Below are positions 31,781 through 33,541 of a DNA stretch of 37,454 nt, one piece after another. How positions within the stretch are numbered: the first letter of the stretch is position 1; every line of letters begins with the position of its first letter. A program made the translations under genes and the position numbers. The notes under the pieces are model-generated. The model was given only the letters and a program-made list of their open reading frames with translations. It did no database searches and was not told the origin of the DNA. Source of the stretch: Lachnospiraceae bacterium (GTDB taxonomy: Bacteria; Bacillota; Clostridia; Lachnospirales; Lachnospiraceae); NCBI GenBank assembly GCA_022768465.1, contig JALELZ010000027.1, forward strand, positions 1-37,454, in the 5' to 3' direction.

Positions 31781-32734
31781 ATGAGTTCCATCATTAAAAA
31801 TAAGAATAAAGGCTTTACTCTGGCTGAGCTTTTGATCGTAATAACGATCATTGGCGTTCTTATTGCCTTTATAATACCTGTTATAGCTAACAAAATCGAA
31901 AATAGCCGTGAAGCTGCAGATATTGCAAATGTAAGATCGGCATATGCGGAAGTAATGTCAAATGTCATTACCGAAAATGACGCAGATGCTTCGAGAATTG
32001 TGAAATTAAAACAGAAGAAGGATGATTGGCAGACTGATCCGGTAACTATTGCAGGAATTACTCACCATAAAGGAGATATTGATAGTATAAATTGGAAGGG
32101 AATTCCTGTTGCAAACGGAGAATGCGAGATTTCTTATGATAAAACTGACGGGATATGATTTTATTGGAAGAATTCCGGTGGTTATGAAGGTCGTGGCGGA
32201 GGCTCAAACGCCTCTCCGAATATAAATTTTAAAGTCAATGACCTCCACGAGGCATTAGATAATACGGATCTTATGCAAAATTTAGCAGCTGCAGGTAATA
32301 AACGCTTTGAAATTGATTCAAAATGCTCTTCATCGTCAATGCTTGGTCAGGTTGAGGCACAGATCGGAGATGACAGTTTACTGAAATACGGAACCTGGGC
32401 ATATCTTGGAAGTACAACGGAAGAAACTAAAAGATATTTGTTCTGGACATCAGTTGATACAAATGAAGTAGGTGCAGGCAGTAAAATTCCTATTATAGTA
32501 AGCAGATGCGGAGGCGGCTATTACATAGCAGAGTCCAAAACAGCTGAGCGAACGGATAAAAACGGTGACATATATGTTGCCATTGCCGATCATATATATA
32601 ATGAATATGGATTTTCATCATATACTAACGGTAAAAGATATGATTCCCTGGATGATGCGTATGCAGCATATTCAAAGCTTATCACTGACGGAGCATATAA
32701 TATATATAAAGACACATTACCGGTAAAAAAATGA
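31781..32734 (+). pseudogene. Type IV prepilin-like (pseudopilin) gene interrupted by one in-frame TGA
   Basis: The N-terminus NKGFTLAELLIVITIIGVLIAF has the prepilin-peptidase cleavage site (after Gly, before Phe), Glu at mature position 5 and the hydrophobic pilin helix. The text SREAADIANVRSAYAEV is familiar from Lachnospiraceae pilin-like proteins. A TGA at 32156-32158 stops the frame after 125 codons. The same frame then continues without stops from FYWKNSGGYEG to a second TGA at 32732-32734, giving about 317 codons in total. The second half is Gly/Ser/Asp-rich like a pilin head. A Trp codon (TGG to TGA) mutation is the simplest cause. No good ribosome binding site precedes the ATG. No pilus assembly genes are nearby. 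Confidence 0.75.
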
Positions 32735-33227: not shown

Positions 33228-33458
33228 ATGACCAATGAGCCTAATAATCTGATGTGCCATTTGTACAAAATTGCAATTTTGGTGTTGACTTTGATCTCAA
33301 ATTGTTTTAACGTAAAGACAACAACAGAACACGAGGTCGATGACATTCTGAGACGTAACACAGGCCGAAGCGTGAAGGTATCATACAATGCGAAGGTGAT
33401 GCTGAAAATGACAGGTAAAAATAAGGATGTCGGACTCAACTTTGGAGAGACCATATAA
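33228..33458 (+). pseudogene. Unrecognised ORF fragment overlapping the riboswitch-like element
   Basis: The frame is open from 33171 and the first ATG is 33228. The first half looks like random AT-rich sequence. From about 33310 it has better coding character (EHEVDDILRRNTGRSVKVSY...GKNKDVGLNFGETI). I do not recognise a family. Its last seven codons lie inside the aptamer (33440-33501), and no ribosome binding site precedes the ATG, so it is more likely a remnant or chance ORF than a working gene. Confidence 0.25.
33285..33313 (+). promoter_or_regulatory. Weak candidate promoter for the riboswitch-controlled module
   Basis: TTGACT (33285-33290) and TAACGT (33308-33313) are 17 nt apart. The -35 is good, the -10 poor (3 of 6). 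It would start a transcript about 120 nt before the aptamer. Another promoter may exist. Confidence 0.25.
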
Positions 33459-33501
33459 TGTGGCGCCAACGAGGCTATAACCAACAGGCAAAAGGACAGA
33501 G
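33440..33501 (+). promoter_or_regulatory. Glycine-riboswitch-like aptamer, variant with a shortened P3 region
   Basis: The order matches a glycine aptamer. P1 is CTTTG (33440-33444) with CAGAG (33497-33501). The conserved GAGAGA (33445-33450) follows, then the P2 hairpin CCATA/TGTGG (33451-33463), then CGCC (33464-33467). The 3' core CAGGCAAAAGGACAGAG (33485-33501) is identical to the one I recall from the Vibrio cholerae gcvT aptamer. The middle is unlike it: instead of CGAAGG, a P3b hairpin and a CTCTC strand, only the 17 bases AACGAGGCTATAACCAA are present. It is a single aptamer, 153 nt before the permease gene. Variants of this class that no longer bind glycine are known, so the ligand is open. 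Degeneration is an alternative. Confidence 0.7.
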
Positions 33502-33541
33502 AACTCATCGCTATATAAATGGGTTCGTATGTCTTTTTTTT
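33501..33541 (+). terminator. Terminator-like expression platform next to the aptamer
   Basis: GAACTCAT (33501-33508) pairs with ATGGGTTC (33519-33526), 8 bp including one G-U. A 7-nt spacer with a C (GTATGTC) then leads into a run of eight T's (33534-33541). The stem shares its first base with the P1 3' strand, so formation of P1 and of this stem may compete. The spacer before the T-run makes it a weaker terminator than usual. Confidence 0.5.

Follow-up and report, generated by a model that had tools for sequence, protein, structure and literature searches.

The window, a 37,454-nucleotide stretch of DNA from a Lachnospiraceae bacterium (contig JALELZ010000027.1), carries at the head of its own operon an RNA that, judged by its sequence, is a real and intact new example of glycine-GGAnGA (Rfam RF03166), an orphan riboswitch family that had been catalogued before. 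This tandem RNA is likely a transcriptional ON switch for genes that import and oxidise an amino compound other than glycine. Family membership, the tandem anatomy, a predicted overlap of P1 with a terminator, a constant dehydrogenase partner and three copies in the genome emerge from the analysis itself. An earlier note on the same DNA had described a glycine-riboswitch-derived variant with a terminator upstream of a catabolic-looking module and this much held, but it did not have the existing Rfam family, the tandem build or the dehydrogenase as the constant partner.

The window carries a complete tandem RF03166 riboswitch

The whole window was scanned with the covariance models of Rfam 15 using cmscan. 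RF03166 was the sole match above cut-off with a score of 124.6 bits against a gathering threshold of 110 (E 2.2e-26), and 177 of the 177 model positions were matched without truncation, covering two tandem aptamers and a leader-linker helix (Table 1). The match is far beyond chance, and the covariance-model search that the earlier note had proposed has in this way returned a family. RF03166 was above cut-off in none of 14 control genomes, and two of the 14 gave matches below it.

Table 1. Features of the RNA element and the operon, in positions of the window
Feature	Position	Strand	Basis and details
Complete tandem glycine-GGAnGA riboswitch, RF03166 model positions 1-177	33333..33503	+	cmscan
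Outer short helix of the RF03166 model	leader 33333-33341 + linker 33432-33439		RF03166 alignment
Aptamer 1	33342..33431	+	P1 33342-33349 with 33424-33431; RF03166 alignment
Aptamer 2 (the part read in the earlier note)	33440..33501	+	RF03166 alignment, 41-sequence alignment, pair counts
Variant P3 hairpin of aptamer 2	33465..33489	+	Replaces the ordinary CGAAGG/P3b/CUCUC core; includes the 17-base middle 33468-33484
Predicted intrinsic terminator	33494..33541	+	Folding; 5' arm overlaps the aptamer-2 P1 3' strand 33497-33501
APC-superfamily amino-acid/amine permease, 570 aa	33654..35366	+	PF13520, 140.8 bits
Saccharopine-dehydrogenase-superfamily oxidoreductase (SDHwin), 423 aa	35462..36733	+	PF03435, 43.8 bits
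CoA-acylating-type aldehyde dehydrogenase, N-terminal 162 aa, cut by contig end	36969..37454	+	Full-length orthologue in sister operon L130

Every piece that the earlier note listed was found at its place in the second aptamer. P1 pairs CTTTG (33440-33444) with CAGAG (33497-33501), GAGAGA lies within GGAGAGA, the P2 hairpin spans 33449-33464, CGCC (33464-33467) is followed by exactly 17 bases and then by the signature CAGGCAAAAGGACAGAG (33485-33501), and eight T's occupy 33534-33541. The extent of 33440..33541 given for the element missed aptamer 1 of the tandem RNA. The 17-base middle was read correctly; the P3 arm is present in the form of a short RF03166-type hairpin, GCC-aacGaGG[cuauaa]CCaaCa-GGC. 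The general form of this hairpin, GCC-nACGnGG[loop]CCAAC-n-GGC, sets RF03166 apart from ordinary glycine aptamers.

The window RNA shares with the ordinary glycine riboswitch (RF00504) the tandem architecture, the GGAGAG J1/2 of aptamer 2 and the GGCAAAAGGACAG strand. However, aptamer 2 is without CGAAGG, P3b and CUCUCA, and aptamer 1 has AGAC and UGACAGG. In place of the RF00504 combination of CGAAGG, P3b arm and CUCUCAGG strand, aptamer 2 has a ACGAGGCUAUAACCAAC-type hairpin, and in place of glycine catabolism or transport the RNA precedes an APC permease, a saccharopine-dehydrogenase-like enzyme and an aldehyde dehydrogenase, which are not known glycine genes. RF03166 was the best model of its clan for the window, an assignment to be read with the facts that cmscan keeps the clan best only and that without cut-offs the longer tandem model also beats RF00504 on the RNA that precedes a glycine-cleavage operon, L139; with cut-offs the two ordinary copies in the genome come out as RF00504. 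The L139 element itself (1275-1421, genome G599) scored 97.6 bits to RF03166, under the cut-off, before glycine-cleavage genes and is probably an ordinary tandem glycine riboswitch. With other RF03166 members the window RNA shares the full-length match above cut-off, the tandem layout, the variant cores and the variant P3 hairpin. Its score is at the low end (124.6 bits compared to 112-175 bits for the 38 scan loci described below), and it has CCAACG...CAACAGG where most others have CCTACG...CAACTGG.

A passage of PMC9481103 that does not name GGAnGA reports that glycine is rejected by glycine-riboswitch variants whose cores have changed and that their specificity has likely altered, and in an excerpt of PMC12452182 RF03166 appears once, as an example of a model whose threshold is unusual. 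The open-access papers searched named no ligand or gene partner for RF03166; we do not claim that these are unpublished, and gene associations are to be expected in the original description of the class.

A predicted terminator overlaps P1 of the second aptamer

A simple terminator scan found none in the window; the scan permits loops of 3-8 bases and the loop in the window has 10. When folded alone the window hairpin was no better than shuffles (z -0.7), and when the P1 strand and the T-run were included it was more stable (z -1.8, equalled or beaten by 8 of 200 shuffles). The overlap was evaluated in the 35 of 42 elements that have both the P1 strand and five T's in a row, leaving out six loci without such a run and one element without the P1 strand (L096 dropped). 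Folding predicted pairing between the P1 3' strand and the downstream arm in 32 of these 35 loci, window included, although for two of the 32 (L092 and L113) the folds are weak and end at a T-run that is apparently internal. In the three failures (L131, L116 and L124) the first T-run seems to lie inside the hairpin.

As the predicted terminator uses the 3' half of P1 of the second aptamer, ligand binding should switch transcription on, and by prediction the terminator is mutually exclusive with the aptamer P1, which is an ON-switch layout. The gcvT glycine riboswitch of B. subtilis uses such a P1-terminator ON platform. Without ligand, the P1 3' strand would go into the terminator hairpin and transcription would stop before the permease gene; with ligand present, P1 would form, the terminator would be blocked and the operon would be transcribed, giving the APC permease, the saccharopine-dehydrogenase-type oxidoreductase and the CoA-acylating aldehyde dehydrogenase. 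The ligand would be an amino compound imported and oxidised by these products and, going by what has been published on such variants, would not be glycine. The abstract of the original variant description (Weinberg, 2017) reportedly likewise says that changed-core glycine variants reject glycine. We infer the ON sense, the class of the ligand and that the substrate of the operon is also the ligand.

Two further copies in the genome precede lipoprotein-like hydrolases

The genome carries three glycine-GGAnGA copies, one in the window and one each on contigs C7 and C22, all above the RF03166 cut-off. Ordinary glycine riboswitches are also present at two weaker places (RF00504, 62.8 and 54.2 bits), and from our reading of the translations these appear to precede an AGCS-type symporter and glyA. 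Identity of the window copy to each of the C7 and C22 copies was 28/31 in the 31-base core, compared to 83/140 and 91/140 outside it. Behind the C7 copy (L128:7957-8141) comes a carboxylesterase (PF00135, 345 bits) and behind the C22 copy (L129:7882-8053) an amidohydrolase (PF07969, 189 bits), and both proteins have a lipobox-like start. In these two copies the aptamer-1 GCCGAAG...GACAGG is changed to GACGGACG...CACGU. The P3 helix of the changed aptamer 1 is apparently kept through compensating changes and this further departure could be another shift in specificity. Pilin-like open frames were seen shortly before the window element (31781-32158) and just after the C22 hydrolase (L129:5413-5805), with GFTLAELL and GFTIAELL.

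Occurrence of the RNA in other genomes and covariation of its structure

RF03166 was above cut-off in two of 61 relatives and 10 of 397 genomes of the family, own genome included in both, and in one of 391 genomes of the class, which was the own genome; these large searches used stricter filters with which weak matches can be lost. A pattern scan of the contigs of one genome per species (84,980 species, the records of the own genome possibly absent) found 38 stretches elsewhere, and all 38 were full-length RF03166 matches above cut-off (112-175 bits). Nine of the 38 contigs agree in length with contigs met through the genome search and were taken as identical to them. The search pattern imposed a 24-base core, so that the invariance of the core is no evidence. 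Many of the bacteria bearing the RNA come from gut samples according to the record titles of the scan.

To evaluate covariation we aligned 41 aptamer-2 sequences, 37 of them distinct, and L096 was dropped because its element enters a gene piece at the contig end. The Rfam-type structure was paired in 99.8% of cells across the 41 sequences, and four of five P2 pairs and one P3 pair showed changes on both sides. The paired fraction and the covariation score were reached by none of 500 shuffles, and the counts of double-change pairs and of further pair types by 11 and 10 of 500. When the structure was slid along the same alignment as a control, pairing dropped to 24-46%. The inner P3 pairs of aptamer 2 were invariant, but they lie within the stretch used for the pattern search and do not count as evidence. 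In the dropped locus (L096, 5117-5289) the RNA runs directly into the last codons of the dehydrogenase at the contig end, reflecting a deletion or a misassembly.

The constant partner of the RNA is a dehydrogenase

A saccharopine-dehydrogenase-superfamily gene or gene piece was detected by tblastn downstream of the RNA in all 38 pattern-scan loci. Thirty-six of these belong to a family that we call SDH0 (56-100% identical to the L109 query), with SDH0 pieces at contig ends in L090, L097, L111, L118 and L125 and a C-terminal piece only in L096, and two are of the window type, L108 (59%) and L127. The dehydrogenase starts at most about 310 bases from the core in 37 of 38 loci; in L127 the permease gene lies between the two. 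SDH0 and the window type are about 24% identical, and finding two dehydrogenase families this distant under the same RNA suggests that the RNA and the chemistry are linked.

SDH0 relatives at E 1e-20 were present in 80 of 291 genomes of the class, none above 31% identity. In the family, nine of 397 genomes had relatives at E 1e-60 or better, eight of them at 66-81%, and G599 has a 36% relative besides the SDH0 piece behind its own RNA (L118). The RNA was above cut-off in seven of the eight genomes with close SDH0; G530 has SDH0 without the RNA on its 12-kb contig. The window-type dehydrogenase was found in one of 291 class genomes (the own) and in nine of 61 relatives, two of these nine with the RNA. 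The earlier note had called for conservation of the element in relatives that carry the permease. The sister species G012 does have the RNA, but G008, G021, G011 and G001 have the permease-dehydrogenase pair with no RF03166 match at E 0.1, and no RNA was found with the window-type dehydrogenase of G024 and G016 or its fragment in G013. Since these four relatives have the pair without the RNA and 38 of 38 RNAs precede a dehydrogenase, the constant partner is the saccharopine-dehydrogenase-like enzyme and not the permease, on which the earlier note had centred its reading. The enzymes can also do without the switch, as seven of nine same-genus window-type genomes (one a fragment) and G530 are without the RNA.

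Among NCBIfam models the permease was closest to those for amino acid and for basic amino acid/polyamine transporters, scoring far under their cut-offs, and it received no usable name from NCBIfam. SDHwin matched the carboxyspermidine dehydrogenase model NF043000 at 57 bits versus a cut-off of 800 and the structure 8deb at E 2.6e-10, and is a distant relative of that enzyme by sequence: its score is far from the cut-off and the His-Glu-Glu triad is absent, with His-Ala-His at the aligned place in a weak alignment. The operon is complete in G012, with permease, dehydrogenase (91%) and acylating-type aldehyde dehydrogenase, and the nearest solved structure to the latter is SucD (412 bits versus 290 for the next). 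According to an excerpt of PMC10249356, Lys70 and Ser243 of SucD hold the substrate carboxyl. By alignment mapping, the third gene's full-length orthologues from G012 and G011 have Thr and Asp at these positions, the window covering the Thr position only, and in this respect the orthologues are without the carboxyl contacts of SucD. Succinate semialdehyde, and hence GABA, was a first guess from the SucD match that was weakened by this residue check.

Of the aldehyde dehydrogenase gene the genome holds two nearly identical copies (98.6% over 486 N-terminal bases), which end at four contig ends (window, L203, L204 and L205). The second copy is on contig C1, where genes for a sigma-54 activator, an amidohydrolase, an iron alcohol dehydrogenase and a further APC permease precede it. 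In L116 and L131 SDH0 has IlvD-like dehydratase and ornithine-cyclodeaminase-like genes nearby, and such genes also occur on the contig that bears a window-type fragment (L196); their recurrence is suggestive of a shared pathway. A few look-alike loci have the same aryl-sulfotransferase-like, FGGY-kinase-like and sugar-type ABC genes as neighbours, which were taken as synteny.

Candidate ligands

Polyamine-type ligands are, weakly, first among the candidates. The ligand may be a polyamine-type cation (spermidine, putrescine, cadaverine, diaminopropane or a conjugate) degraded by the operon, a reading that is possible if on balance unlikely. It sharpens the ON-switch explanation and leaves the anatomy of the switch as it is: the dehydrogenase would oxidise the amine to an amino-aldehyde and the acylating aldehyde dehydrogenase would make the CoA ester of the latter. 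Both dehydrogenases are nearest to carboxynorspermidine/carboxyspermidine dehydrogenase, SDH0 at 143 bits and the window type at the 57 bits given above, both far below the NF043000 cut-off. Carboxyspermidine dehydrogenase as described in an excerpt of PMC10413350 is the closest characterised enzyme to SDH0, and its catalytic residues, the His-Glu-Glu triad and the Glu188 equivalent, are kept in 33 of 33 aligned SDH0 copies, whereas SDHwin has His-Ala-His in the weak alignment and SDH0 has no decarboxylase partner that we could see. None of eight SDH0 genomes had a carboxyspermidine decarboxylase above cut-off (there was one weak match, in G497) or a second carboxyspermidine-dehydrogenase-like gene, so that SDH0 probably differs in role from the usual enzyme of biosynthesis, and carboxyspermidine synthesis was dropped as its function. 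A cationic aldehyde would be compatible with the Thr and Asp that the aldehyde dehydrogenases of the sister species have at the positions taken from the excerpt of PMC10249356.

PotD-like genes within 5 kb of the RNA also point to polyamines and were found in eight of 38 loci in three arrangements (L091, L094, L104, L110, L111, L112, L120/G761 and L124), a raw count over these loci. In G761 the PotD-like gene is some 300 bases from the RNA and divergent, and PotA was above its subfamily cut-off in L091, L111 and L124. Each of 10 checked genomes had one PotD-like match, G649 two. However, the PotD matches score 208-244 bits versus an NCBIfam cut-off of 582 and come partly from related loci, no PotD was seen near the other 30 loci (some shortened by contig ends), and PotD relatives carry other amines too. 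The permease assignment is weak and only distantly polyamine-like, and the C7 esterase and C22 amidohydrolase are left unexplained by a polyamine ligand as such. A spermidine riboswitch built on a SAM aptamer, described in an excerpt of PMC10853860, is a precedent for a polyamine sensor made from the aptamer of another metabolite; its aptamer is unrelated to the window RNA. Put together, and more speculatively, the GGAnGA RNAs might be polyamine-type sensors derived from the glycine aptamer and govern a three-operon regulon that harvests the ligand from conjugates, with the surface esterase and amidohydrolase (C7 and C22) acting before the permease, an NAD(P)-dependent amine dehydrogenase and the CoA-acylating aldehyde dehydrogenase.

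A small omega-amino acid or N-substituted glycine (beta-alanine, GABA, sarcosine, taurine or carboxymethyl-lysine) could be sensed instead, with the aldehyde dehydrogenase acting on a semialdehyde, and we regard this only as a tentative candidate. The origin of the RNA from a glycine aptamer, the APC family of the permease, the SucD match of the aldehyde dehydrogenase and its second copy with an iron alcohol dehydrogenase and another APC permease are all consistent with it, but the carboxyl-binding residues of SucD are lost and the binding strands of aptamer 2 are rebuilt and not point-mutated.

That glycine is still bound in vivo and the second pocket alone has been remodelled is improbable. 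Aptamer 1 of the window does keep GCCGAAG, unlike aptamer 2, but its J1/2 and CUCUC strand are altered too as read from the RF03166 alignment, changed-core variants reject glycine according to the passage of PMC9481103, and the regulated genes are no known glycine genes. The suggestion of the earlier note that the variant aptamer may sense another amino compound is supported as probable. Its main alternative, a functionless degenerate glycine riboswitch, would fit the relatives that keep the permease-dehydrogenase pair without the RNA but is hardly credible given the three genome copies with their conserved core, 38 further full-length examples, P2 covariation, kept terminators and the separate ordinary glycine riboswitches before the AGCS-type symporter and glyA.

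Significance

The dehydrogenase tie in 38 of 38 loci across two distant subfamilies, the compact operon and the two lipoprotein-like hydrolases narrow the ligand search to testable amino compounds. Three leads stand out as the most valuable: the link to the dehydrogenase, the presence of three copies together with the two lipoprotein-like hydrolases, and the further change of aptamer 1 in the C7 and C22 copies. If a polyamine ligand proved true, this would be a second known aptamer fold turned into a polyamine sensor, and polyamine supply in the gut matters to the host.
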